Positions 1 to 58,913 of a stretch of DNA of 64,000 nucleotides are shown here, piece by piece. Location of the stretch: IMG/VR virus record IMGVR_UViG_3300025770_001492, positions 124,001 through 188,000 of that record; one strand, written 5' to 3'. Every line of letters begins with the position of its first letter. Position 1 is the first letter of the stretch. The notes beneath the pieces were generated by a model. It was not told the origin of the DNA and made no database searches. It saw nothing but the letters and a program-made list of their open reading frames with translations. The position numbers and the translations under genes are program-made. Origin of the DNA: a virus.

Positions 1-116
1 TACTCTGCACATGCAGCGAGCATTTCTTTCGCTTCTTCAACATCAGAAGTAAACCACAATCCAACTTGAGGATGCTTTAAGGTTCTGCCTGTCTTTTTAT
101 TCAATAAAGTATACAT
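1..116 (-). CDS. Small hypothetical protein, partial at left edge
   Basis: An open frame begins at the ATG at 116-114 and runs off the left end after about 38 codons. The visible N-terminus starts MYTLLNKKTGRTLKHPQVGL and is followed by an acidic helix-like stretch. The ATG shares one base with the TGA of the upstream gene, so the two are probably co-translated. No family recognised. Confidence 0.5.
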   Translation of the reverse strand, partial: MYTLLNKKTGRTLKHPQVGLWFTSDVEEAKEMLAACAE

Positions 117-508
117 CAACCTATATTAGTATCAGGCGATGGAACTTGAACCGTTGAGTTAGCATTATTTTGAGCTTGTCCAAATTGTTGAGGCTGACCT
201 ATGCCGCCGCCACGAACCGAACCAGATTTTGGCGTCGAGGGTGGGGACATATTAGAAGCAGGGGGAACAGGATTCGGCTGAGTGCCGGGACTCATGTTTG
301 AAGCTGGTCTTTTGTTGTTTGTTTGCAATTTGTCAGACACATTAAATGCCGATCTGGGCTTTTTAGAACTATTTAAATTATCTTGAGGATTGATGCCTGC
401 CATTTGTGGATTAGCAGGTGCTACAGGGCTTTCTCCTGCCCTTCCTGCTGCGTTCATTCCTGTGGCACTTGCTCCCGTGCCTTGCTCAAGCCATTTTCTG
501 AATTCCAT
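116..508 (-). CDS. Hypothetical low-complexity protein with capsid-targeting-like N-terminus
   Basis: A 130-residue protein rich in Asn, Pro, Ser, Gly and Gln with no recognisable fold; it looks disordered. Its N-terminus, MEFRKWLEQ, fits the F-x-x-W-L motif shared with other proteins in this window. No Shine-Dalgarno is visible; the 15 bases before the ATG are AT-rich (TATCTACATAATAGT). It is divergent from the HNH gene with only 14 bases between them. Function unknown; an internal virion protein is a possibility by analogy only. Confidence 0.6.
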   Translation of the reverse strand: MEFRKWLEQGTGASATGMNAAGRAGESPVAPANPQMAGINPQDNLNSSKKPRSAFNVSDKLQTNNKRPASNMSPGTQPNPVPPASNMSPPSTPKSGSVRGGGIGQPQQFGQAQNNANSTVQVPSPDTNIG

Positions 509-801: not shown

Positions 802-1062
802 TTACTTCTTTGCGTTATTGTCAGGCAAAAATTTTGCTGCATCGGCTGGCTTTAGCTGGCCGCTATCGATTGCTTTTATAACATTATTTTTTACAGCATC
901 TTTTACGGCTTTAGAATCTCCACCACTTTTGATTGTTTTTGTGGTGTCTGCTTTAATTTGCTGGCTCAACTGAGAATTCTCTGCGTCCTTTTCCGCATTG
1001 CCCTGTTGTCCCACTTCCATCTCTTTAAGAGATACCCATTTTTCAAAAGAATAATTATTCAT
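802..1062 (-). CDS. Hypothetical protein with capsid-targeting-like N-terminus
   Basis: An 86-residue, Lys/Ala/Asp-rich, probably helical protein. The first 14 residues, MNNYSFEKWVSLKE, contain F-x-x-W-V followed by L-x-E, the recognition type cut by T4 prohead protease. There is no Shine-Dalgarno; instead CATAGATAAATTACT lies directly before the ATG, matching two other motif carriers in position. Its stop lies next to that of the convergent HNH gene. Function unknown. Confidence 0.6.
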   Translation of the reverse strand: MNNYSFEKWVSLKEMEVGQQGNAEKDAENSQLSQQIKADTTKTIKSGGDSKAVKDAVKNNVIKAIDSGQLKPADAAKFLPDNNAKK

Positions 1063-11241: not shown

Positions 11242-12110
11242 ACTGCAACTTCGAACTTTATTTCTGGCTCAGGGTTATAATCTTCTAAGACGAAATCAGA
11301 AGGCTTGTAGTCTTCAATTGAATTGGCTGTGGCGAAGATTTTCAAAACGGGAGAATCAGGCTTGCCTCTAGAAAGATATTCCTCAACAGCTTCTATCTGA
11401 TTGACATAGATGTGACTGTCTGCTGTCGTATGAATAAACTCGTAAGGCTCTAAATCCGCTTGTTGGGCAAGCATATAAATCAAAGCACTATAGAATGCTA
11501 TGTTAAAAGGAACACCAACAGGGAAATCACAAGAGCGTTGCGTAAGCATACCGCTAAGTTTGCCATCATGCGTATAACACTGGAAAGTGTAATGACAAGG
11601 AGGCAATCTCATTTGATGCATCATCTTAGGATTCCATAGGGAGAAGAGAATCCTTCTATCATTTGGATTATTTTTTAAAAGATCAACCATGTAAGCAAGT
11701 TGATCAAAACCACCTTCTCCATAAAGTGGATTAGCATTAACTTCGCTTGAGCCGTTTCCATAGTGTCCACCAAAATGCCTAAGCTGGAAGCCATACAAGG
11801 GACCAAACGCACCGTCTACAAATCCATTTTCTTCTTCGAACTCTTTGTCCAGCCAAGGAGTCCAAAACCCACAACCTAGATCTTTCAAATCTTGGTTTAA
11901 AGTGCTACCGGACAAAAACCAAAGAAGCTCGCCAACCATTGATTTATGGCGAATTTTTCGTCTGGTCAAAAGAGGAAATCTCTCATCAATCCTATAGCGA
12001 GATTGCATTCCAAAAAGAGAAATAGTATCAACGCCTGTGCGATTTGTCTTTCTTATTCCGTGTTTTAGAATCTTTTCCAAAGCATCGTCATAATCTTGCA
12101 TCAAATACAT
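11238..12110 (-). CDS. thyA: Thymidylate synthase
   Basis: A 290-residue ThyA. It starts with the usual YDDALEKILKHG..KTNRTGVDTISLFG, has the FWTPW segment, the active site LPPCHYTFQCY with the catalytic Cys, then QRSCDFPVGVPFNIA and ADSHIYVNQ. It makes dTMP from dUMP with methylenetetrahydrofolate. First of the thyA-DHFR pair; it follows a PPIase gene and a 52-residue gene in the same direction. Confidence 0.93.
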   Translation of the reverse strand: MYLMQDYDDALEKILKHGIRKTNRTGVDTISLFGMQSRYRIDERFPLLTRRKIRHKSMVGELLWFLSGSTLNQDLKDLGCGFWTPWLDKEFEEENGFVDGAFGPLYGFQLRHFGGHYGNGSSEVNANPLYGEGGFDQLAYMVDLLKNNPNDRRILFSLWNPKMMHQMRLPPCHYTFQCYTHDGKLSGMLTQRSCDFPVGVPFNIAFYSALIYMLAQQADLEPYEFIHTTADSHIYVNQIEAVEEYLSRGKPDSPVLKIFATANSIEDYKPSDFVLEDYNPEPEIKFEVAV

Positions 12111-12119
12111 TTAAGTTCT

Positions 12120-12278
12120 CTAAGGCTTTACTTTTGATAATCTGTCTTTTATTTTTTCCAAAAGAGGCTCTTCACTCTCGTCGTAATCACGCACGAGTGC
12201 CAAACCACCAAGAGCCTTCTTTAAAAAATCAATTTCTTCAGATCGAAGCATGACAGGGTAAACCATTACATTTTTCAT
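12120..12278 (-). CDS. Small hypothetical protein
   Basis: A 52-residue protein (MKNVMVYPVMLRSEEIDFLK) with a predicted helical, acidic C-terminal half. The ATG at 12278 lies one base after the stop of the PPIase gene, which favours it over an upstream in-frame start. No family recognised. Confidence 0.5.
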   Translation of the reverse strand: MKNVMVYPVMLRSEEIDFLKKALGGLALVRDYDESEEPLLEKIKDRLSKVKP

Positions 12279-12279
12279 T

Positions 12280-12555
12280 TCAATCTCTGGCTGTGACTTG
12301 TAGCAGATGATAACCAAACTGCGTCTTCACTGGTCCTTGCACTTCGTTCAGGGGGCAGCTAAATACAACTTGATCAAACTCAGGAACCATTCTTCCTCTT
12401 CCAAAAGATCCTAGCCCACCACCAGTTTGACCTGATGGGCATTTTGAATAATCTTTGGCGGCTTGTCCAAAATCCGACCCAGATTCAATCTCTTTTTTCA
12501 GTTCTAAACATCGTGCCTCTGAGTCTACCAAAATATGTCTTGCAGTCGCTTGCAT
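12280..12555 (-). CDS. Parvulin-type peptidyl-prolyl isomerase
   Basis: A 91-residue single-domain parvulin. ATARHILVDSEARCLELKKE, FGQAAKDYSKCPSG, GGGLGSFGRGRMVPEFD and VQGPVKTQFGYHLLQV are the four signature segments of PpiC-type rotamases, and the length equals E. coli PpiC. It would catalyse cis-trans isomerisation of X-Pro bonds in the cytoplasm; no signal peptide. It heads the thyA operon. Confidence 0.9.
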   Translation of the reverse strand: MQATARHILVDSEARCLELKKEIESGSDFGQAAKDYSKCPSGQTGGGLGSFGRGRMVPEFDQVVFSCPLNEVQGPVKTQFGYHLLQVTARD

Positions 12556-12809: not shown

Positions 12810-12880
12810 TACTAGATCAGTGTTCCTGCGACGGTAATAATATAGTAATCAATCAGAATAATCAATGCCGAATTGAAAAA

Positions 12881-13279
12881 TTACATGGGTGACTGAGAAT
12901 CCAAGCCTTGCAGAAGTGCGGTGTTCAACTGATCAACAGGAATCGTATAAACTTTGTTATCTGGATCTTCATAAGCACTGACTCTGATTTGCTTTCCATC
13001 ATCGTCTTTTTTAAACTTTTTCTTTGTTGTATCACTTGTATCGTTCATCATCTGGATTTTAGCATGGGTTATATTTCCATCAGAATCACGATCATACCCT
13101 AAAATTTTATATCCAGATAGGTTATATGAATTTCCACCTATAGAAAACTGAGAAATAGTCTGCGGACTGTCTGCAACTAGTTCAGGGGGTATTCCTAGCT
13201 CGTCTTCAATTTGGTTTAAATAATCTATTTTTTGTTTTTGATATTCCAAAAAATCTCTAAATGATAAATTGTTGTTCAT
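12881..13279 (-). CDS. Hypothetical protein with capsid-targeting-like N-terminus
   Basis: A 132-residue protein starting MNNNLSFRDFLEYQKQ, which fits the F-x-x-[W/F]-L motif. A middle region (NSYNLSGYKILGYDRDSDGN) may be a small beta domain; the rest is polar. There is no Shine-Dalgarno; TATATAAGGC immediately precedes the ATG. Family unknown. Confidence 0.6.
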   Translation of the reverse strand: MNNNLSFRDFLEYQKQKIDYLNQIEDELGIPPELVADSPQTISQFSIGGNSYNLSGYKILGYDRDSDGNITHAKIQMMNDTSDTTKKKFKKDDDGKQIRVSAYEDPDNKVYTIPVDQLNTALLQGLDSQSPM

Positions 13280-34396: not shown

Positions 34397-35176
34397 TTAG
34401 TACCATTTCAGAGTATTAGTGATTGTTTCTATTATTTCAGAATTTTCCTGTGTAGGAAAGAAATTCAAATCAGTATCAGAAGGACTCATGGCCCACTCAT
34501 GTTGTCCCATTCCAGACTCTATGTTGTAGTTCAATATTCGAATCATCCCTTTTTCTTTTTCGAATATTATAGAAGTTTGATTTTCCTCGACTCTTTGATG
34601 ATCTGGTGCTTGGTTGCCATGTCCTTTAACTCCCAGTCTGATGATATAATTAGAATTACTTATTTTCTTAATGCCCTCATAGATGAAGATATTCTTTGCG
34701 TTTCTTCTTATAGAATCAGCCATTTGTACAACTAGGCTTTCGAGTTTATTATATTCTCTCTTTGGAGAATCTATATCCTCTTTATTTATCACTTGCACTT
34801 CGTCTAAAACTTCATTGGCGACTATATCTTCATATCCCCCATATCCGCCTCTGTTTATTTGAAAAATTCTTTTTGTATACCAAGTTGGGTTCCCAGTTAA
34901 ATCGCTTCCTAGTCTGTCGATCATGAGATTCAGACCAGTACCACACCAGCACTTTATAGAACCGGAATTATCTCCCCATTGTACCTCATTCATGAAATTG
35001 CTACGCCCTTCATTGGTTCCAATTTTTTTAGATGCGAGTATAGAAAACAGCTTTTCTAAATCAAAAGATTTTATAGGCATATCGTTTTGATGTGACTTCT
35101 CAGCATCTTTGTTGTTTTGATCAAATCCAAAAATATCTTTAAATTCTAACCATGTTTTAAAGCCTTTAACTGTCAT
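34397..35176 (-). CDS. Hypothetical protein with capsid-targeting-like N-terminus
   Basis: A 259-residue protein starting MTVKGFKTWLEFKD, which fits F-x-x-W-L. The body is mixed alpha/beta with a Gly-rich patch (GTGLNLMIDRL; RGGYGGYED) and no family that I recognise. It sits downstream of the fibre-type genes on the minus strand. Possible internal virion protein. Confidence 0.6.
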   Translation of the reverse strand: MTVKGFKTWLEFKDIFGFDQNNKDAEKSHQNDMPIKSFDLEKLFSILASKKIGTNEGRSNFMNEVQWGDNSGSIKCWCGTGLNLMIDRLGSDLTGNPTWYTKRIFQINRGGYGGYEDIVANEVLDEVQVINKEDIDSPKREYNKLESLVVQMADSIRRNAKNIFIYEGIKKISNSNYIIRLGVKGHGNQAPDHQRVEENQTSIIFEKEKGMIRILNYNIESGMGQHEWAMSPSDTDLNFFPTQENSEIIETITNTLKWY

Positions 35177-38229: not shown

Positions 38230-39384
38230 TTATTGGTTGTAATTAACTAGAATCACATCTCCAGACTCAGGGGCAGTATTAAATGTTATAATGGCTCCTG
38301 ATAAAGTGTAATCATTTGCACCACCAGTATTCTGGATGATGCCATTTAGATAAATACAATCAGTATTTGACAAAGGTGTTGCCGCCATTGTGAAGTCTGT
38401 ATTTGATCCATTAACTGTTCCTGTAGGAGTTTCTCTTGTTACCCAAGTATCTGTAACATATGAATCCGCAATGGTAAAGGCTGCACTTGAACTCATTGTC
38501 AGGTCGCCCCCAACTGCGTTGTAGGTAGTGTCAGATGCACCTTGTCCAACAAGCAATGCAGCAGAAGCTCCATCGGCAAGAGAAAGCCCACTAGAACCTA
38601 GAGCGAGAGTTGATCCATCAAGATTAACTTCAATATCATCAGCATTTACGGTAATTCCACCCGAAGTTGCAGCACCAATATTAACATCACCGCCAGATGC
38701 TGCTAGACCGCTTCCTGCACCGACTGAAATACCGCCAGCACCAAGGTTTAGTCCCGAATTAGTATCCAGATTTATTGTGATGTCGTTTGCATTTGCTGTT
38801 AATCCACCGCTTGTTGCGGCAACAACATCTACTGTTTCATCAGTCTTCGTAAGACCAGCACCAGCTACAAGATCGCCTAAAAGTTGTCCGGTTTGAGAGA
38901 ATTTTTCAAAAGTCAGAGCGGTTGTATCTAGAGTGATAGATCCGGTTGTAGTTAGCAACCAGCCAGTGTCTGCGTTTGAAGTTCCTTCTTCAATGAATGC
39001 AAACATGCCAGTTGTAACTTCGGCACTTGTGTTTGCGTCTGAAGATCTGACAGGAGCACCAGATGCGGTTACATCATAAATACCGTTTTGGTTACCAGTT
39101 GATTGATTCTTAAGAAGAATTCTATCGTCTGCTACAAGAGTCACTCCGTCTACGGTTTGACCTGCTGTGAATGCTGAAGCAAAAGTTCCATTAGACGTAG
39201 TTGCTACCCTAATGCTTTCTTTAAAATCAATTACACCACCTGCAACTTGAGCATCAACATATGCTTTCGTTGCAGCTTCCTGATTTGCTGTCGGATCTGT
39301 AAGATTGACAATTTTATTGGTTTGCAAGTCAAGATTGCCAGTAAATCTTAACTGACGAGCACCATCTGTTTGTGTTACGGCCAT
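38230..39384 (-). CDS. Fibre-like structural protein, paralogue A
   Basis: A 384-residue protein. N-terminal QTNKIVNLTDPTANQEAATK module, then a beta domain (RILLKNQSTGNQNGIYDVTA), then a Gly/Ala/Asn/Asp repeat region (ATSGGLTANANDITINLD and AATSGGITVNADDIEVNL), and a C-terminal domain (TPTGTVNGSNTDF...GDVILVNYN). It is a tandem duplicate of the gene at 39437. Probably a trimeric fibre. Confidence 0.75.
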   Translation of the reverse strand: MAVTQTDGARQLRFTGNLDLQTNKIVNLTDPTANQEAATKAYVDAQVAGGVIDFKESIRVATTSNGTFASAFTAGQTVDGVTLVADDRILLKNQSTGNQNGIYDVTASGAPVRSSDANTSAEVTTGMFAFIEEGTSNADTGWLLTTTGSITLDTTALTFEKFSQTGQLLGDLVAGAGLTKTDETVDVVAATSGGLTANANDITINLDTNSGLNLGAGGISVGAGSGLAASGGDVNIGAATSGGITVNADDIEVNLDGSTLALGSSGLSLADGASAALLVGQGASDTTYNAVGGDLTMSSSAAFTIADSYVTDTWVTRETPTGTVNGSNTDFTMAATPLSNTDCIYLNGIIQNTGGANDYTLSGAIITFNTAPESGDVILVNYNQ

Positions 39385-39436: not shown

Positions 39437-40591
39437 TTATTTGGCATAATTAACTAATAAAACATCTCCGGTTTCAGGAGCACTATTGAAAGTGATTGAG
39501 TTTGTTGAAATGGTGTAATCATTTGAACCGCCAACATTTTGAAGTATACCATTTAAATGGACACATTCTGTTCCACTTAAAGGCGTTGCTGCCAACGTGT
39601 AAGAAGCATTGCTTCCATTTACAAGTCCTGATGGAACTTCTCTGTAAACCCAAGTATCTGTAACATATGAATCCGCAATGGTAAAGGCTGCACTTGAACT
39701 CATTGTCAGGTCGCCCCCAACTGCGTTGTAAGTCGAATCAGATGCACCTTGTCCAACAAGCAATGCAGCAGAGGCTCCATCGGCAAGAGAAAGACCACTA
39801 GCACCTAGAGCGAGAGTTGATCCGTCAAGATTTACTTGGATATCATCAGCATTTACGGTAATTCCACCCGAAGTTGCAGCACCAACATTAACGTCACCGC
39901 CAGATGCTGCCAAACCACTTCCTGCACCGACTGAGATACCGTTAGCACCAAGGTTTAGTCCCGAATTAGTATCTAGATTTATTGTGATGTCGTTTGCATT
40001 TGCTGTTAATCCACCGCTTGTTGCGGCAACAACATCTACTGTTTCAGCAGTCTTCGTAAGACCAGCACCAGCTACAAGATCTTCTAAAAGTTGTCCAACT
40101 TCACTGAATTTTTCAAAAGTCAGAGCCGTTGTATCTAAGGTGATAGTTCCAGTTGTAGTTAGTAACCATCCGGTTTTTGCGTTTGAAGTTCCTTCTTCTA
40201 CAAAACAAAACAGTCCACTTGTAACTTCTGCACTTGTGTCTGCATCTGATGACCTACTTGGAGCACCAGTAGCTTGTACTATGTAGATTCCGTTCTCGTC
40301 TCCTGATGACTGGTTTTTGATTAAAATTCTATCATTAGTTGCAAGAGTCACTCCGTCTATAACGTCGTTATTTTCAAAATCACTAGCTAGAGTTCCTGTT
40401 GCCGTAGTTGCAACTCTGACACTTTCTTTAAAATCAATTACACCACCTGCAACTTGAGCATCAACATATGATTTCGTAGCAGCGTCTTGATTTGCTGTCG
40501 GATCTGTAAGATTGACAATTTTATTGGTTTGCAAGTCAAGATTACCAGTAAATCTTAATTGACGAGCACCATCTATTTGTGTTACGGCCAT
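39437..40591 (-). CDS. Fibre-like structural protein, paralogue B
   Basis: A 384-residue protein of exactly the same length as paralogue A and nearly identical through the central repeat region. Differences concentrate in the second beta domain (residues about 60-160) and in the C-terminal domain (VPSGLVNGSNASY...GDVLLVNYA). This pattern suggests tandem duplication with gene conversion in the middle and divergence at the likely ligand-facing parts. It is the first gene of the minus-strand fibre block. Confidence 0.75.
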   Translation of the reverse strand: MAVTQIDGARQLRFTGNLDLQTNKIVNLTDPTANQDAATKSYVDAQVAGGVIDFKESVRVATTATGTLASDFENNDVIDGVTLATNDRILIKNQSSGDENGIYIVQATGAPSRSSDADTSAEVTSGLFCFVEEGTSNAKTGWLLTTTGTITLDTTALTFEKFSEVGQLLEDLVAGAGLTKTAETVDVVAATSGGLTANANDITINLDTNSGLNLGANGISVGAGSGLAASGGDVNVGAATSGGITVNADDIQVNLDGSTLALGASGLSLADGASAALLVGQGASDSTYNAVGGDLTMSSSAAFTIADSYVTDTWVYREVPSGLVNGSNASYTLAATPLSGTECVHLNGILQNVGGSNDYTISTNSITFNSAPETGDVLLVNYAK

Positions 40592-42800: not shown

Positions 42801-43682
42801 ATGTTTTGGAAAGACAGCTTAGTTTCTGTAGATCAATTAGATAAGTATTCTATATCTGAAATATTTTCTCAGACTGATTTGTTTAAAATAAGTCCTTTTC
42901 CGTGCGGTTCGGGAGATAAAGTTTTTGCCACTATGTTCTTTGAACCATCCACTAGAACTAGACTTTCTTTCGAGTCTGCAATTGTTAGACATGATTACCG
43001 TTTAATAACTGTTGAAAATGGGAAAGTAAGCTCGTCTGACAAAAAAGGCGAATCTTTAGAAGATTGTGTCAAAACAGTCTCGCAGTATGTTGACTGCATC
43101 ATACTAAGACACCCAGAAAAGGGTGCTGCTAAAAGAGCAGCAAAAGTTTCAGATGTTCCAATTATAAACGCTGGTGATGGCGACGGAGAACATCCCACTC
43201 AATCTTTGTTGGACATGTATACTATTTACGAGAATAAAAAGACAGATAAACAAAACTGTTGGTCTTTGGAATCTGTGTTTGAACCATTAAATGTCCTTTT
43301 TTACGCAGATTTAGAAAATGCCAGAACAGTCAATTCTCTTGAAAAACTTCTTTCTTTATATGGGGCATCTGTCGAAAAAAGAAGTCTTTTTGACGACCCC
43401 AATAAAGATAAAGATTTATGGAAAAAGGCTGATGTCGTTTATATCACTAGGCTTCAAAAAGAAAGAAAAGATCCTGATCGGCCTTTATGCAAAATACCAG
43501 AAAATGTGGTAAATGAAGAAATATTAAAATCAACCAATGAAAATTGTATTTTTCTTCATCCCTTACCAAGGTGTGGCGAAGTAGATCCAGCAATAGACAA
43601 AGATGAAAGAGTACTATTTTGGCCACAGGTTAAAAATGGCATGTACACCAGAATGGCTTTAATTTCTATGATGAATATCTGA
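42801..43682 (+). CDS. pyrB: Aspartate carbamoyltransferase catalytic chain
   Basis: A 293-residue enzyme. FFEPSTRTRLSFE (carbamoyl-phosphate loop), SSSDKKGESLED (the mobile loop Ser/Lys), GDGDGEHPTQSLLDMYTI and FLHPLPRCGEVDP are the ATCase signatures; the HPLPR segment and the STRTR/KGES pair rule in favour of PyrB over ornithine carbamoyltransferase. It joins aspartate and carbamoyl phosphate, the committed step of pyrimidine synthesis. No regulatory PyrI is seen. With PyrE, ThyA and RNR it would boost dTTP and dCTP. Confidence 0.9.
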   Translation: MFWKDSLVSVDQLDKYSISEIFSQTDLFKISPFPCGSGDKVFATMFFEPSTRTRLSFESAIVRHDYRLITVENGKVSSSDKKGESLEDCVKTVSQYVDCIILRHPEKGAAKRAAKVSDVPIINAGDGDGEHPTQSLLDMYTIYENKKTDKQNCWSLESVFEPLNVLFYADLENARTVNSLEKLLSLYGASVEKRSLFDDPNKDKDLWKKADVVYITRLQKERKDPDRPLCKIPENVVNEEILKSTNENCIFLHPLPRCGEVDPAIDKDERVLFWPQVKNGMYTRMALISMMNI

Positions 43683-43705
43683 ACCTAAAAACTATATATT
43701 TTGTT

Positions 43706-43960
43706 ATGGAATTTAGATATTGGATAGAATCTGAAGCGAAAGCACTGGCGTCTAGAGACATGGTGCTTAATTTTCTTCAAGATAAATTAAACATTAATGA
43801 TCCCGAAGCAATCCTAAATATGTCTACAGATCAGATAGACTCAGGCGTTATTGCAGATCTTTCCCAAAGAGGAATTATATCTTCTGATGATGAGCTTCAA
43901 TCTATAATCAAGAACGGAATTAAGATATCTGAATTAATAAACATTCTTTCAAAGCAATGA
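43706..43960 (+). CDS. Small protein with capsid-targeting-like N-terminus
   Basis: An 84-residue helical acidic protein starting MEFRYWIESEAKAL, a clear F-x-x-W-I motif with the same first four residues (MEFR) as the protein at 508. TATATATTTTGTT precedes the ATG and there is no Shine-Dalgarno. Function unknown; candidate internal virion protein. Confidence 0.6.
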   Translation: MEFRYWIESEAKALASRDMVLNFLQDKLNINDPEAILNMSTDQIDSGVIADLSQRGIISSDDELQSIIKNGIKISELINILSKQ

Positions 43961-43970
43961 GGCAAAATGA

Positions 43971-44762
43971 ATGGGAAATTATAAAATTTTAATGTGTAAG
44001 CCAACGCATTACGGCATTAAATATTCTATAAACCCTTGGATGAATCTAGAAAATCAATCAGACTACTCAAAATCTCAAAAACAATGGCAAAAACTTCATG
44101 ACACAATCCTCTCCACAGGAGCAGAAATTGAACACGTTGAACCTCATTCAGATGTGCCAGATATAGTATTCACAGCAAACGCTGCTCTTATATATGAAAA
44201 TAAATGCATCATATCGAACTTCAAATTTGATGAAAGAAAAAAAGAAGAAAAATTTTACGAGGAAAAACTTGGTGAATATTACGACATTGTCAGATTACCA
44301 AGAGAGTTAAATTTTGAAGGAGCAGGAGATGCTTTGTTTTCAGAAAATAAATTAATTATGGCGCATGGATTTAGGACTAGTATTGATTCTTTACATGCAA
44401 TTGACGAGGTGTTGGAACTTGATTCAATTAAGGTCAAATTGATAGACCCTTATTTTTATCATTTAGATACATGTTTTTGTCCTCTTGAAAAAAATAAAGC
44501 AATTTACTTTCCGAAAGCATTCCACAGGGATTCTGTTAAAGCTTTAAATGAAAATATGGACATGATACCTGTTCCTGAAAACGATGCAAAAAAGTTCGCA
44601 TGTAATGCTGTGGTAATTGGAAATTATGTTATAATTCCAGAAGGATGTGATGAAACTAAAAGACTTTTAGAGAGAATGAACTTTAATGTACTGTGCTGCG
44701 ATATGAGTGAATTCATAAAAGCAGGCGGTGCTTGCAAATGTCTGACTCTCATGATGGTGTAA
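43971..44762 (+). CDS. Arginine deiminase-superfamily amidinohydrolase (DDAH-like)
   Basis: A 263-residue protein of the guanidino-group-modifying fold. PDIVFTANAALIY, LNFEGAGDALF, YHLDTCFCPL (catalytic His) and FIKAGGACKCLTL (catalytic Cys in GGACKC) match dimethylarginine dimethylaminohydrolase and related amidinotransferases. It probably hydrolyses or transfers the guanidino group of an arginine-like compound. Its purpose in the phage is not evident; the PyrB and histidine-phosphatase genes are neighbours. Confidence 0.8.
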   Translation: MGNYKILMCKPTHYGIKYSINPWMNLENQSDYSKSQKQWQKLHDTILSTGAEIEHVEPHSDVPDIVFTANAALIYENKCIISNFKFDERKKEEKFYEEKLGEYYDIVRLPRELNFEGAGDALFSENKLIMAHGFRTSIDSLHAIDEVLELDSIKVKLIDPYFYHLDTCFCPLEKNKAIYFPKAFHRDSVKALNENMDMIPVPENDAKKFACNAVVIGNYVIIPEGCDETKRLLERMNFNVLCCDMSEFIKAGGACKCLTLMMV

Positions 44763-44764
44763 TA

Positions 44765-45415
44765 ATGGAAATACTAATAATTCGACACGGACAGAGTGAA
44801 CACAATGTCTCCTATGAAGGCACTTTGGATTCTTCTTTGACCAAAAAAGGAAATGAGCAAGTTTACAATACAGCTTGCTGGCTTAAAGATAACTTTGATT
44901 TATCTGGTTACAAGGGAGTATCGAGTCCATATTTAAGAACTCTTCAAACTTCTTATATTTTACGAAGTCAAACTAATATTGATTTCGAAGTAAATGAACT
45001 TGTTCGAGAATATCATGTAAAAAAAGATGAACCTGAACTTGTAGAAAATCAAGGAATGCCTATTAAATTTAGGGAAAATCTGTTTGGAGATTTTGACTGG
45101 AGCAGATGGAATGGGAAAGATGGAAAGTATGGAGTTTCTGAAGACCTCAAAATATACCCGAATGAAACTATGGACGATTTCTTGGGAAGAATAGAATTTT
45201 ATTTAAAAGGTTTAAATGAAGATTCTAAATATCTCATCGTAGGACACGGAGCATCATGTCGTGCTCTCCATGATGTATCAATAAACAAAGATTTAAAAAG
45301 TATCAAAGAAAGATATGCAAAACCGATTAAAGAGTATAAAGATAGCATTGAGAATTCTAGTTTAATATGGATTAAAGATGAAAAATGCAAATGGTTTTCT
45401 AAAGTAGTTTGGTAA
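44765..45415 (+). CDS. Histidine phosphatase family (phosphoglycerate mutase-like)
   Basis: A 216-residue protein. EILIIRHGQSEHN carries the RHG motif with the catalytic His, SSPYLRTLQTS the second Arg, and YLIVGHGASCRAL the second His. The start MEILIIRHG at 44765 is two bases after the upstream stop. Substrates in this family range from sugar phosphates to nucleotides; the adjoining genes do not settle it. Confidence 0.8.
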   Translation: MEILIIRHGQSEHNVSYEGTLDSSLTKKGNEQVYNTACWLKDNFDLSGYKGVSSPYLRTLQTSYILRSQTNIDFEVNELVREYHVKKDEPELVENQGMPIKFRENLFGDFDWSRWNGKDGKYGVSEDLKIYPNETMDDFLGRIEFYLKGLNEDSKYLIVGHGASCRALHDVSINKDLKSIKERYAKPIKEYKDSIENSSLIWIKDEKCKWFSKVVW

Positions 45416-45420
45416 AAAAC

Positions 45421-46044
45421 ATGAAACCTTGTTGGATTTTAACAACCCCAAGATCTGGATCGACCTTTTTAAGCAGGAGATTAAACCAGACAGGACTTTT
45501 TAACCCACCGTTTGCAGAGTGGTATAATAGCGAGACACTCTTTGATGAATTTCTTGTAAAGAACCCAGTTCCGTTTTGCAAGATACATAAATTTCAATAT
45601 AATGAACATCTGCCGTCGTTTCCAAAAAATGTATTTTTTATACATTTAACTAGAAAAGACTTGGCAGAAGCAACAGTTTCACAGTATTTCGCAGGACATA
45701 CTAAAATGTGGAACACTACGTGTGAGAAAGACCTCTCAGAACACGCAAACGTGGATGTCCCTTACAATAGAGATACAATGCTTCGCTTGTACTTTGATAT
45801 GATACATGAGTCAAAAGGATGGGTCGAATTCTTAAAAGATAAAAAACACCTAGAGTTCGATTATGAGGACCTAATGACTGATTGTAGTTCTATTGTGGAC
45901 AAAATAGTTGAATTAACTGAGACTCAAAACAATGAACCAAACAAATATAAAGACATGCACACTCCATTAAAGATGTATCATCCACTTAAGGAAGAATATG
46001 TAAAAAAATTCAAGGAAACAATTAAACAAATAGAGAATAATTAA
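45421..46044 (+). CDS. Stf0-like sulfotransferase
   Basis: A 207-residue protein. CWILTTPRSGSTFLSRRLNQ is the PAPS-binding loop characteristic of Stf0 (trehalose sulfotransferase)-type enzymes, and VFFIHLTRKDLAEATVSQYF the 3'-phosphate-binding region. It is a second sulfotransferase, clearly different from that at 3291. Acceptor unknown; a glycan is likely. Confidence 0.75.
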   Translation: MKPCWILTTPRSGSTFLSRRLNQTGLFNPPFAEWYNSETLFDEFLVKNPVPFCKIHKFQYNEHLPSFPKNVFFIHLTRKDLAEATVSQYFAGHTKMWNTTCEKDLSEHANVDVPYNRDTMLRLYFDMIHESKGWVEFLKDKKHLEFDYEDLMTDCSSIVDKIVELTETQNNEPNKYKDMHTPLKMYHPLKEEYVKKFKETIKQIENN

Positions 46045-46433: not shown

Positions 46434-47888
46434 ATGAAGAAAGCTGTAATAAAGGTTCAAAACTGCTATTCTTGGTTAAACACCAATTGTGATGATACCC
46501 GAATAAATCTTTGGAAAGCCCTTAGACATAGAGAAAAAGGGTATTTTCACAGTCGTCTTTATAAACAAAGGCTGTGGGATGGATATACAGAGTTTTTCAA
46601 AAAAGAAAGTGGAAGATTTTTATCTGGCCTACTGCCAGAGGTTACTGCTGCTTTAGATCATTGGAAAATACCTCATACCATTATCGATGAGAGAGGTGAG
46701 CCTGAATTTTTGTATGACGAAATTGGCTCGGACTTCTTGGATCAATGGATTCATCACCTTCCTCAGAAAGATCAAGATCGATGGCAAGGAATGCGTGACT
46801 ATCAAATTGATCTCACCAATCAAGTCATCAAACACAAGAGAGGTGTTGTTTTTGCCCCAACCTCAGCAGGTAAAACTGCAATCATGGTTGCAATTTTAAA
46901 AACAATTCCTGAAAACGTGCCAACTCTTATTCTTGCAAATAAGAAAAGCCTTTGTGATCAAAACTATGATGCCTTGACAAGCTGGGGATTTGAAAATGTC
47001 GGACGACTTTATGACAAGTACAAAGATCCAAACATCTTCACATGTGCGACTGTACAATCTTTGCATAAAATAGAAAAGTTAATTCCTAAAGTTAAAGTCA
47101 TGGTAGTGGATGAAATTCATGACATGATGAGTAAGACGCCAAAGAAGTTTTACACAAAAATGAAAAACTGCTCGGTTAGAGTAGCCGTCAGTGCTACGCC
47201 TTTTAAATTTGGCGGAAAAGATAAAACACAAAAGTTCTCTGTAAAAGGCCACTTTGGACCTGTGCTTAAAACAAAGTCAGCAGATAACGACAAGGGAATC
47301 CTTACAACAAAGACTCTTCAAGATAGAGGAATCTTATCTTCTTGTAACTGTACGTTCTATCCAGTGAAAGAACCTCAGATTCCGTATGATATTTATCTTG
47401 ATGCAGTAACCAATGGTATAGCTGAGAGTTGGCATTTTCACGACATTGTGAGCCGATTGGCTAGATCTTTGAAGGGCAGAACCCTTATCTTGGTCGAAAG
47501 ACTTGCACACGGAGAAGCCTTGCAAAGTCTGATTCCTGATGCTTTATGGGTTCGTGGAGAAGATAACCTAGATGCAAGAAAAGATGTCATCGACCAGCTA
47601 CAGTACTCTAAAGGCAATAAAATAGCAATCGCCACCCAAGGTATTTTCAATGCTGGGATCAACGTGTTTGTCCACAATCTTATCAATGCGGCTGGAGGAC
47701 AAGCAGATCACCAGATTATACAGCGATTTGGGCGAGGATTGAGACTTGCATCTGATAAAGACGGACTTGAATACTATGATTTTGTTTTCGATATAAATGA
47801 ATATTTGCTAGATCATTCAAAGAAAAGAATTAAAATTATAAAGAATGAAGGACATAAAGTAGATATTCGTGAAGAATTAGACTTTTAA
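46434..47888 (+). CDS. uvsW: UvsW-like superfamily 2 DNA helicase
   Basis: A 484-residue helicase. An N-terminal region (about 1-120, with LWKALRHREKGYFHSRLYKQ and LWDGYTEFF) matches the double-stranded-DNA-binding domain of UvsW. Core motifs: RDYQ, FAPTSAGKTAI (Walker A), DEIHDMM box, VSATPF, and QRFGRGLRLA (motif VI). In T4 UvsW unwinds branched DNA and R-loops and switches origin replication to recombination-dependent replication. It supports the T4-type assignment along with UvsX and gp46/47. Confidence 0.88.
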   Translation: MKKAVIKVQNCYSWLNTNCDDTRINLWKALRHREKGYFHSRLYKQRLWDGYTEFFKKESGRFLSGLLPEVTAALDHWKIPHTIIDERGEPEFLYDEIGSDFLDQWIHHLPQKDQDRWQGMRDYQIDLTNQVIKHKRGVVFAPTSAGKTAIMVAILKTIPENVPTLILANKKSLCDQNYDALTSWGFENVGRLYDKYKDPNIFTCATVQSLHKIEKLIPKVKVMVVDEIHDMMSKTPKKFYTKMKNCSVRVAVSATPFKFGGKDKTQKFSVKGHFGPVLKTKSADNDKGILTTKTLQDRGILSSCNCTFYPVKEPQIPYDIYLDAVTNGIAESWHFHDIVSRLARSLKGRTLILVERLAHGEALQSLIPDALWVRGEDNLDARKDVIDQLQYSKGNKIAIATQGIFNAGINVFVHNLINAAGGQADHQIIQRFGRGLRLASDKDGLEYYDFVFDINEYLLDHSKKRIKIIKNEGHKVDIREELDF

Positions 47889-47889
47889 A

Positions 47890-47904
47890 CATAAATAATT
47901 TATT
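47890..47904 (+). promoter_or_regulatory. TATA-like element directly before the start codon
   Basis: CATAAATAATTTATT fills the 15 bases before the ATG at 47905, in the same spacing as those before 1062 and 58485. It resembles the T4 late promoter TATAAATA. No Shine-Dalgarno is present. Confidence 0.45.
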
Positions 47905-49884
47905 ATGTTTAGAAATTGGATAGAAAATAAAGAACAGTTAAATAAATCGGTCAACAAGTCAATTGACGAAATTGTTTATGGCGATATGGATGAAAAGACA
48001 GATGCTCTGTCTAAAAAAGAGCATCCTCTCTTTAAAGGAAGATTTAAGGTAGACCCACCACCTTCCAACACCTCGAAAGAAACTATCGAGGAACTTAAAG
48101 AGCTAGAAAAGATGAGTCATTTTAAGTCCAAAGATATCATGAAAGATATGAAGGATTTTGATGTGGCTCAAGTCAAGCCATTTGAAGATTATCTTAAACA
48201 AAATTCTCTAGATTTCGATTTCAAAATGCTTAACAAAATACTTAAGCAAGGCGAAATACTTGGACTAAAGCTTAAAAAGAAGTTCAACAGACCAAGACCG
48301 CATCAGATCGCACCCAAGATGGGTCTAAACATAATGTATCATGATTTGAAAACAGACGATACGCCAGCTTATCCTTCAAATCACTCTTTGATTTCTTCTT
48401 TAATTGCTCTATATCTTTCTTCGCTATATCCGAAACATGAAAAAGGATTCATGGACATTGCAGACAGGATCGGAATTAGCCGATTATATGGAGGGACTCA
48501 TTATCGAAGCGATCATGATTCTGCAAGGAAACTAGCTAAGGACATCATGAAGTCTTGGAAACCTGCTGTTAAGCCTGCAAAATATTCGTTCACTGAGTGG
48601 ATGCTGAAGCTCGAAGACCAAGGTATCCACGCATTCATGCGAGTGGCAAGTGAAAAATATAAAGACGACAGAAGTAAAGACATTCTTGTTATTTATGGAA
48701 ATACGACGCCAATTAAAGACAAACTAAAAGAAATAACAAAATTTACTTGGAACCAAGGTGGCTATTGGAGCACGGGCAGGTGGAGTCTGAATAATGATGT
48801 GATTCAAAAACTCATAGAGCTAACTGGAATAACTGATTTGAAAGAAATCATAGATGCTGGACCGCAATTTAACGCTGATTCGACTGAGGCAGAAGAAGAG
48901 AAAGATGCACCCAAGAGTCAAGTTGATGCGATTCTTGGTAACATGGAACAGGAAATTGAAAACGCTAAAGGCAAAGCGGGCGGTAAAGCAAAACAAATTC
49001 TCACCATGATTGAAAACTATCTTGAAAAATTGGCCAACTTGGTTGATGAAGAAATCAAATCAGGATTCGTTAAAGACTTTATGCGGTTTGCTGCTAAATT
49101 CCACAACTACTCTTTCAATAATCAAATGTTGATTTACGCACAAAAGAAAGATGCAACTTACGTAAACTCTGAAAGTCGTTGGCTTAAACTCGGAAGAGCA
49201 GTTACCAATAAGGATCAAGGAATTATAATTCTTGCGCCTATGACAGGAAAGAAAAAAGAAAAAGATGCAGATTTAGAGGGGCAAAAGGAAGAAAGAAAAT
49301 TTGTATTCTTCAGACCCGTTAAAGTTTATGATATTTCTTCAACACAAGTCATATCAGGACAAGAAGACAAGGCAAAAGTGTTTGAGCCAAATGATTGGCG
49401 ACAAGATACTGATGAAAACACTGAAGAACTTACCCTGCTCATCAATGCAGGAATAGAAATAGCCAAGCAAAAAGATATATCTATCGACTATGAGGAACTA
49501 GCTCAAGGTACGGGCGGCTACTCTGCGGGTGGAAAGATTGTAATCAACAACACCTATGGTGGAATCAACAAGTTTAGCACTCTCGTACATGAACTCGCCC
49601 ATGAAATACTCCATCAAGTAATGAAGCCAGAAGAAAGAGCAAAAGAAAACAAAAGAGATTTTGAATATGATGCTGAATCTGTGGCCTATATCGTTCTTCA
49701 ATACTTTGGATTTGAAACCAAAGACTCTCCAAGATATATCGCTCTATGGAAAGGCGACAGCAAAGCAGTTAAAGGAAGAAGAGAAAATATCAGCAAAGCA
49801 TCAAAGGAAATCATTCAAGGCATAAAAAAGAATGTCGAGGATATGGTAATTCAAGATGATCTCCCTGAAGAAGATGCTGCCTAA
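47905..49884 (+). CDS. PAP2 phosphatase / ArdC-like antirestriction / zinc peptidase fusion
   Basis: A 659-residue multidomain protein. Residues 1-6 (MFRNWI) fit the targeting-like motif. About 90-220 is a PAP2-type acid phosphatase: KKKFNRPRP, PSNH (157-160), SRLYGGTHYRSD (192-203). A second motif copy, KYSFTEWMLKLED, is at 226-238. About 385-480 matches the ArdC N-terminal ssDNA-binding domain (NNQMLIYAQ, SRWLKLGRAV, GIIILAP). About 535-600 is a zincin: VHELAHEIL (H562, E563, H566) and DAESVAY (E591). ArdC proteins block restriction; the architecture suggests two packaged proteins fused. Middle region 240-320 unassigned. Confidence 0.75.
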   Translation: MFRNWIENKEQLNKSVNKSIDEIVYGDMDEKTDALSKKEHPLFKGRFKVDPPPSNTSKETIEELKELEKMSHFKSKDIMKDMKDFDVAQVKPFEDYLKQNSLDFDFKMLNKILKQGEILGLKLKKKFNRPRPHQIAPKMGLNIMYHDLKTDDTPAYPSNHSLISSLIALYLSSLYPKHEKGFMDIADRIGISRLYGGTHYRSDHDSARKLAKDIMKSWKPAVKPAKYSFTEWMLKLEDQGIHAFMRVASEKYKDDRSKDILVIYGNTTPIKDKLKEITKFTWNQGGYWSTGRWSLNNDVIQKLIELTGITDLKEIIDAGPQFNADSTEAEEEKDAPKSQVDAILGNMEQEIENAKGKAGGKAKQILTMIENYLEKLANLVDEEIKSGFVKDFMRFAAKFHNYSFNNQMLIYAQKKDATYVNSESRWLKLGRAVTNKDQGIIILAPMTGKKKEKDADLEGQKEERKFVFFRPVKVYDISSTQVISGQEDKAKVFEPNDWRQDTDENTEELTLLINAGIEIAKQKDISIDYEELAQGTGGYSAGGKIVINNTYGGINKFSTLVHELAHEILHQVMKPEERAKENKRDFEYDAESVAYIVLQYFGFETKDSPRYIALWKGDSKAVKGRRENISKASKEIIQGIKKNVEDMVIQDDLPEEDAA

Positions 49885-58484: not shown

Positions 58485-58913
58485 ATGAATTTTAAAGACT
58501 TTATTGTATCAGAAGAAGATATGGCACCGATGGGAGACCCTATGGGCGGTGGAATGCCGATGGGAGACCCTATGGGCGGTGGAATGCCGATGGACCCTAT
58601 GGGTGGAGCACCCCCAATGGACCCTATGGGAGGGATGGGTGGAGGAGCACCCCCAATGGACCCTATGGGAGGGATGGGTGGAGGAGCACCAGGCGGCGTT
58701 CAACCACCAATACAATTTAAACCTAATTCTGTTTGGGATGTTTTAGATAAAATATTAAATGGAGAGCCTGTTAACGATAAAGAAGATGAAGAAAAAGAAA
58801 AAGAAAAAGAAGTAGATCAATCTGGACAAGAAAATTTAGATATGTTAAGTTCCCCTCAACAGCAAGAACCGGGAATGGCCCCCACTGGTCAAGTTGAGAA
58901 TCCTCAGCTTTAA
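58485..58913 (+). CDS. Met/Gly/Pro-rich repeat protein with capsid-targeting-like N-terminus
   Basis: A 142-residue protein. MNFKDFIVSEED fits F-x-x-F-I followed by acidic residues, close to the T4 internal-protein start MKTYQEFIAE. Residues about 12-72 are a tandem array of DPMGG(G)MP and PPMDPMGGMGG units; then a short folded piece (NSVWDVLDKILNGEPVND) and an acidic tail. The repeat is low complexity and may be disordered. Candidate internal or scaffold-like virion protein. Confidence 0.65.
   Translation: MNFKDFIVSEEDMAPMGDPMGGGMPMGDPMGGGMPMDPMGGAPPMDPMGGMGGGAPPMDPMGGMGGGAPGGVQPPIQFKPNSVWDVLDKILNGEPVNDKEDEEKEKEKEVDQSGQENLDMLSSPQQQEPGMAPTGQVENPQL
58533..58690 (+). repeat. Tandem short repeats within the Met-rich gene
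   Basis: Two near-identical units of about 27 bases (from 58533 and 58560), then two of about 48 bases (GTGGAGGAGCACCCCCAATG type) in direct succession. They encode the DPMGG repeats. In-frame repeat gain or loss is likely in relatives. Confidence 0.75.

Follow-up and report, generated by a model that had tools for sequence, protein, structure and literature searches.

The question raised by this locus is what brings together, in one viral protein, a phosphatase, an antirestriction protein and a short aromatic motif at the very N-terminus. The reading frame lies in a stretch of 64,000 nucleotides, here called the window, which represents bases 124001-188000 of the 245,522-base virus record IMGVR_UViG_3300025770_001492. 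The 659-residue frame proposed in a preliminary description of this DNA was borne out at 47905-49884 on the plus strand. Three further IMG/VR contigs from different datasets encode the same ORF with 100% identity over all 659 residues, therefore it does not represent a single-sample assembly artefact; the search for close relatives gave just these three identical contigs. Its layout in window positions is the following:

47905..49884, + strand: 659-aa fusion of an N-terminal tag, a PAP2-type phosphatase, a linker and a complete ArdC (ssDNA-binding domain and metallopeptidase)
47908..47922, + strand: tag F2-R-N-W-I6, the best-scoring copy of a genome-wide tag
48256..48513, + strand: PAP2 domain, residues 118-203, class A acid-phosphatase-like, with all catalytic motifs
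48589..48603, + strand: internal FTEWM, residues 229-233, indistinguishable from chance
48604..48993, + strand: linker, residues 234-363, no confident family, model mostly of low confidence
48994..49329, + strand: ArdC N-terminal ssDNA-binding domain, residues 364-475
49423..49743, + strand: ArdC metallopeptidase domain, HELAH 562-566 at 49588-49602 and E591 at 49675-49677

The C-terminal half is an ArdC protein. Pfam PF08401 matches residues 364-475 (E 1.3e-8, 35.5 bits against a cut-off of 22.6), and an antirestriction family of PHROGs spans residues 393-636. Hence, the ArdC-type N-terminal domain and the link to antirestriction had been recognized correctly beforehand, the latter being supported by the family match, whereas the limits of the domain move from about 385-480 to 364-475. 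The sequence indeed contains the previously noted HELAH 562-566 and E591. In an alignment of 39 phage ArdC proteins, i.e. the ORF and 38 others, none deviates at the zinc ligands and the catalytic glutamate (H562, E563, H566, E591). The profile made from this alignment gave the R388 ArdC structures 6SNA/6I89 as top matches (E 1.7e-16) and IrrE weakly. Structure prediction, which had been suggested as a check, returned the ArdC fold, with pLDDT above 90 for most of residues 400-650 and 6SNA/6I89 as the best PDB matches; residues 1-360 are of low confidence, because that half is without relatives. R388 ArdC is built from a ssDNA-binding domain followed by a metallopeptidase, and its peptidase is dispensable for antirestriction (PMC7213743). 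Since ArdC normally comprises both the N-terminal domain and the zinc peptidase, the ORF consists of two known units and not of three (PAP2, ArdC-like protein and zinc peptidase), as initially assumed. Its ArdC shares approximately 25-35% identity with the ArdC proteins of other phages. At about 80 inspected loci, these are mostly stand-alone proteins of 250-320 residues, many of them without tag; a PAP2-ArdC fusion was not found among the ORFs inspected at these loci. According to PMC5512222, polyvalent proteins of phages and plasmids often combine ArdC-N and a metallopeptidase. Like such proteins, the ORF combines at least two unlike activities, including ArdC-N with a metallopeptidase. A search of the record with PF18818 (MPTase-PolyVal), run without a working control, gave no match.

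The preceding half carries a PAP2 domain at residues 118-203 (Pfam PF01569, E 2.6e-9, above the cut-off). The motifs PSNH 157-160 and SR-x5-H-x3-D 192-203 occur where the preliminary description had placed them, and K122-x6-RP is found in addition. A membrane span is absent from this half; it is probably soluble, because its highest Kyte-Doolittle mean over 19 residues is just 0.74. The soluble acid phosphatase structures 7F17/7F18 match it by sequence with E of about 1e-8, and its predicted model is of low confidence, with an alignment that contains no relatives. The substrate is a guess, a nucleotide-type defence signal being one option. For residues 225-345, the comparison with solved structures returned designed armadillo repeats and other weak matches, which we judged spurious, and a Foldseek search of the predicted model against viral models gave nothing at E 0.001. 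In the neighbourhood, metabolic-looking genes precede the ORF at window 42801-46044 (carbamoyltransferase, dimethylargininase-like protein, histidine phosphatase, sulfotransferase). Further upstream, two neighbouring genes (window 38230-39384 and 39437-40591) encode 384-aa proteins that are nearly identical at their N-termini and resemble head-decoration/tail-fibre families.

The motif F-x-x-W-I at residues 2-6 had been described as targeting-like. As a class it occurs far above chance, in the manner of a targeting tag. About 22 ORFs in the 245-kb record start with F-x-x-[FW]-[LIVM]. In the form [FW]-polar-x-[FW]-[ILVM] starting within the first 10 residues, it was counted in 20 of 324 gene calls compared to about 1.6-2.1 expected from the motif frequency inside proteins (1.6 if the start range is narrowed, P about 2e-15); these counts refer to called starts only, which came from a simple script and are in some cases wrong, e.g. 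at record 111985 and 124116. Shuffling the residues within each N-terminus resulted in a mean count of 1.9 and a maximum of 8. When a position-specific score was trained without the ORF, its N-terminus still ranked first in the genome. The second aromatic residue is followed by L, I, V or M in 47 of 47 tag copies used, a property that is part of the selection pattern. Examples in the record are MKFKSWLEQ, MEFKDFLES, MNFRKWIEG, MKFREFLLNE, MSFRNFIES and MNFKNWLEL. A shared nucleotide element as origin of the tag is not favoured, because codons vary at its variable and aliphatic positions; the TTT codon is somewhat overrepresented at the first F. Among internal sequences, the one most similar to the tag is ESFQNWLESKEE, located at residue 105 of a 170-aa protein (record 47343-47855). 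Besides the fusion, the following tagged proteins are encoded in the window:

116..508, - strand: 130-aa protein, tag MEFRKWLEQG if read from an upstream ATG
802..1062, - strand: 86-aa protein, tag MNNYSFEKWVSLKE
12881..13279, - strand: 132-aa protein, tag MNNNLSFRDFLEY
34397..35176, - strand: 259-aa protein, tag MTVKGFKTWLEFK; the ortholog in LR756511 is tagged too (MKSFASWFNE)
43706..43960, + strand: 84-aa protein, tag MEFRYWIESE
58485..58913, + strand: 142-aa Met/Gly/Pro-rich protein, tag MNFKDFIVSEED if read from an upstream ATG

The tagged proteins of the record are unrelated to each other and comprise, for example, a NUDIX hydrolase, a predicted nucleotidyltransferase, two small HExxH proteins and a very acidic protein. 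Two others, of 57-64 aa (record 96690-96884 and 213897-214070), have a net charge of +13 and end in lysine runs; they are possibly DNA-condensing head proteins. Zincins, methyltransferases and one protein resembling a poly(A) polymerase also belong to the candidate cargo. The tag is absent from the DNA polymerase, helicases, UvsX, SSB, ribonucleotide reductase and tail sheath of the record.

The N-terminal tag also recurs in related phages. The nearest named record is LR756511, a 595-kb uncultured phage that has a kinase with 66% identity and shares 120 reciprocal best hits with our record. It has 25 N-terminal tags compared to 4.2 expected. In LR756511 the tag is found on 9 of 10 orthologs of tagged genes and on 5 of 110 orthologs of untagged genes (P about 2e-9); an ortholog of the 659-aa ORF was not detectable there. 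Gain and loss occur on the same enzymes: the NUDIX protein (record 218514-218939) is tagged in the record and untagged in LR756511, and the opposite is true for a cyclic-phosphodiesterase-like protein (untagged at record 12845-13210, tagged at LR756511 locus 11779-12324). LR756502, a phage of 642 kb that is more distantly related, encodes 18 proteins in its first 400 kb that open with the stricter T4-like form [FYW]xx[FW][ILVM]xE, including methyltransferases and a DHH-domain protein, compared to 0.7 expected. Furthermore, 55 head-module loci around gp23 genes of the clade, some of them near-duplicates, contain 43 N-terminal tags with 1.5 expected. The tag counts of phiKZ and S-PM2 show no excess, and phiYS40 has a weak excess by one pattern (P 0.03) and none by other patterns. 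Among 14 related contigs, neither a tagged PAP2 nor a tagged ArdC was found; ArdC is present in two of them, untagged, and PAP2 in one, untagged and apparently of the membrane type.

The pattern resembles the capsid targeting sequence of T4. IPII and IPIII of T4 start with MKTYQEFIAEA and IPI with MKTFKEF, and many tags of LR756511 likewise read MKTF (MKTFNQWLE, MKTFSEWLE). For IPIII it was reported that packaging needs no more than the first ten residues, that residues 4 and 7 (Y, F) target the protein, and that residues 8 and 10 (I, E) direct its processing (PMC9026906). Ip1-3 have the leader alone in common; once injected, they block type IV restriction enzymes, a different one in each case (PMC12373910). 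In the ORF, F2, W5 and I6 correspond to Y4, F7 and I8 of IPIII. However, the conserved glutamate of the clade is mostly located one residue earlier than position 10 of T4, and the first [LI]-x-E of the ORF is IDE 20-22, with none at the T4 position. Given this earlier glutamate, processing of the tag may differ from that in T4. It must also be mentioned that the match to T4 is a pattern of 5-7 residues, which could have arisen by convergence or serve docking of another kind. In T4 itself, the 54-residue hypothetical protein gp61.1 (NC_000866 18966-19130) starts with MKTFKEFIKEDM, which corresponds to the T4 capsid targeting pattern, and may represent an unrecognised packaged protein.

A search for a gp21-like prohead protease, proposed at the outset, gave a divided answer. 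In LR756511 a T4-type gp23 (290 bits) adjoins an S77 (gp21-type) protease (96 bits), but neither S77 protease nor gp23 was found in the 245,522-base record. No gene of the record has an ortholog starting at LR756511 500-550 kb, where the head genes are located, therefore the record appears to be a fragment without the head module. Two contigs of approximately 340 kb encode both a gp23 that is 82-92% identical to that of LR756511 and a kinase that is 68-72% identical to that of the record. A ClpP-like 'head maturation protease' (record 116495-117208) was considered as likely prohead protease and dropped in view of the S77 protease beside the LR756511 gp23. At record 116495-122479, the ClpP-like gene stands beside a PrkA-like kinase and two further genes, an arrangement that recalls the SpoVR/YeaH/PrkA operon of the host; of this set, the kinase gene and the two further ones are kept in LR756511 and partly in Thermus phages.

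The upstream region of the ORF may give some information on its timing. The T4-type late promoter -10 element, TATAAATA, is resembled by a motif close upstream of the ATG:

47890..47897, + strand: CATAAATA, resembling the T4-type late promoter -10 element

Window 47875-47904 contains CATAAATAATT, and a Shine-Dalgarno motif is absent right before the ATG. Late-promoter-like motifs are modestly enriched 5' of tagged genes, with an exploratory Fisher P of 0.003-0.03 depending on the cut-off, of which several were tried, so that a link between late promoter and tag is suggestive only. Moreover, the Shine-Dalgarno motif is missing in about half of the tagged genes compared to a quarter of all genes, which may reflect late, leaderless transcripts.

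Taken together, we consider it probable that huge phages deliver dozens of cargo proteins by means of an N-terminal capsid targeting sequence of the T4 type, the ORF product being one of them. Judged from T4 and from the occurrence pattern, the tag is likely to act as a capsid address; provided that the protein is delivered, the ArdC half quite likely serves in antirestriction, as its family would predict. We infer packaging, injection and activity of the product along the following lines. During head assembly, F-x-x-[FW]-[LIVM] would dock the protein into the prohead core, as in T4. It would then be packaged with the DNA, and the tag would perhaps be trimmed by a gp21-type protease such as that encoded by the relatives. 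Subsequently, the protein would be injected along with the genome, and by analogy with R388 ArdC its ArdC half would bind incoming or single-stranded DNA and block restriction; the intact metallopeptidase may also act on a host or phage protein. In the weakest step of this scheme, the soluble PAP2 half could dephosphorylate a small molecule or nucleotide, plausibly a defence signal or host metabolite.

Other explanations have to be weighed against capsid delivery. Short aromatic peptides are common docking motifs. Hence, the tag could dock the protein to another phage structure, such as the replisome, a sliding clamp, a transcription complex or an intracellular compartment, and the protein would then work after synthesis in the cell. 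The data on R388 ArdC fit with such a role, since it works if made in the recipient and its expression there was what mattered (PMC7213743), a result that also disputes the previous statement that ArdC enters recipient cells with plasmid DNA. However, replication, recombination and tail proteins are untagged, and the key tag positions match the packaging residues mapped in T4. The very basic, poly-lysine-tailed members of the tagged set and the tags around gp23 genes also speak against docking elsewhere, as does the lack of an excess in phiKZ, although this jumbo phage forms an intracellular compartment. We therefore regard this alternative as rather unlikely. A similar weighing applies to the assumption that the ORF encodes an ordinary early polyvalent protein, with ArdC antirestriction and a phosphatase, in which the tag has no role. 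The ArdC-N/metallopeptidase pair is indeed common (PMC5512222), and many phages encode untagged ArdC; but the N-terminus of the ORF is the best tag of the genome even when left out of training, and the tag set as a whole cannot be due to chance, which makes this assumption improbable.

The preliminary description had favoured a third possibility, itself a variant of packaged cargo, namely that two separately packaged, individually tagged proteins were fused and are perhaps split by the prohead protease near residue 229. It draws on the F-x-x-W-M at 229-233 between the PAP2 and ArdC halves, and stand-alone ArdC is the rule in other phages. The internal motif, however, scores 6.2 and ranks 58 of 68,159 internal windows; 0.54 windows scoring like FTEWM are expected in 640 residues, corresponding to a chance of about 12% in the 218-363 linker. 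Furthermore, [LI]-x-E is absent at the junction, the nearest ones being LKE 64-66 before and LKE 274-276 after it. Because the internal motif is within chance and a cleavage signal is missing nearby, neither a second tag nor cleavage at the junction is supported. About 130 unassigned residues separate FTEWM from ArdC, and a separately tagged PAP2 or ArdC gene was found neither in the 14 related contigs nor at the about 80 phage ArdC loci. Fused cargo is accordingly a very unlikely origin of the ORF.

If the capsid address is accepted, a broader picture of this widespread huge-phage clade emerges, towards which we lean slightly: the T4-type tag would represent a genome-wide loading code carried by dozens of otherwise unrelated enzymes (nucleotide hydrolases, peptidases, methyltransferases, RNA-end enzymes and DNA-binding antirestriction proteins), its gain and loss would switch proteins between injected and cell-made, and the ORF would be the first PAP2-ArdC fusion so delivered. 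Internal proteins bearing a capsid targeting sequence, ArdC and polyvalent proteins are already known. As far as tested, three things are new: the occurrence of the tag on tens of huge-phage proteins, the fact that one and the same enzyme can gain or lose it, and the joining of PAP2 to ArdC; in the literature searched, outside which most subscription journals lie, the short tag is described for T4 and its T-even relatives only. The injected proteins of huge phages are largely unknown, because most such phages were never cultured. A tag acting as capsid address would make it possible to list them from sequence alone, including those of uncultured phages, and would turn many 'hypothetical' genes into candidate counter-defence or takeover proteins. 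Foreign proteins are already being loaded into T4 heads by means of the T4 tag, an application that a version on large enzymes in phages of 300-600 kb would extend. Moreover, the pattern leads to a testable prediction in phage T4 itself, namely that gp61.1 is a packaged protein.

Compared with known systems, the ORF resembles ArdC of R388/pSa (6SNA, 6I89) in both domains, their order and fold, but it is phage-borne and carries a 360-residue N-terminal part (tag and PAP2) ahead of them. With class A non-specific acid phosphatases (7F17/7F18, 1D2T) it shares K-x6-RP, PS-x-H, SR-x5-H-x3-D and the lack of a membrane span; it differs by PSNH where PSGH is usual and by the addition of the capsid-type N-terminal tag and the ArdC fusion. 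The polyvalent proteins of phages and conjugative elements (Iyer et al. 2017, PMC5512222) likewise combine unlike activities in one chain, including ArdC-N with a metallopeptidase, and their injection with DNA has been proposed; the passages of that paper considered here do not mention a PAP2 phosphatase and do not tie these proteins to a T4-type capsid tag. Head proteins of the giant phage SPN3US also use N-terminal targeting on injected proteins, but their propeptides, mostly over 100 residues, are far longer than the short tag (PMC5694885), and phiKZ, a related giant phage according to the same paper, is without short-tag excess. IPI, IPII and IPIII of T4 share with our phages the N-terminal aromatic-x-x-aromatic-aliphatic tag on otherwise unrelated proteins and, as predicted for the ORF, an antirestriction role. 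In contrast to T4, the huge phages, with genomes of 245-640 kb, use W as commonly as F at the second aromatic position and carry the tag on about 20 proteins or more in each genome, among them large enzymes.
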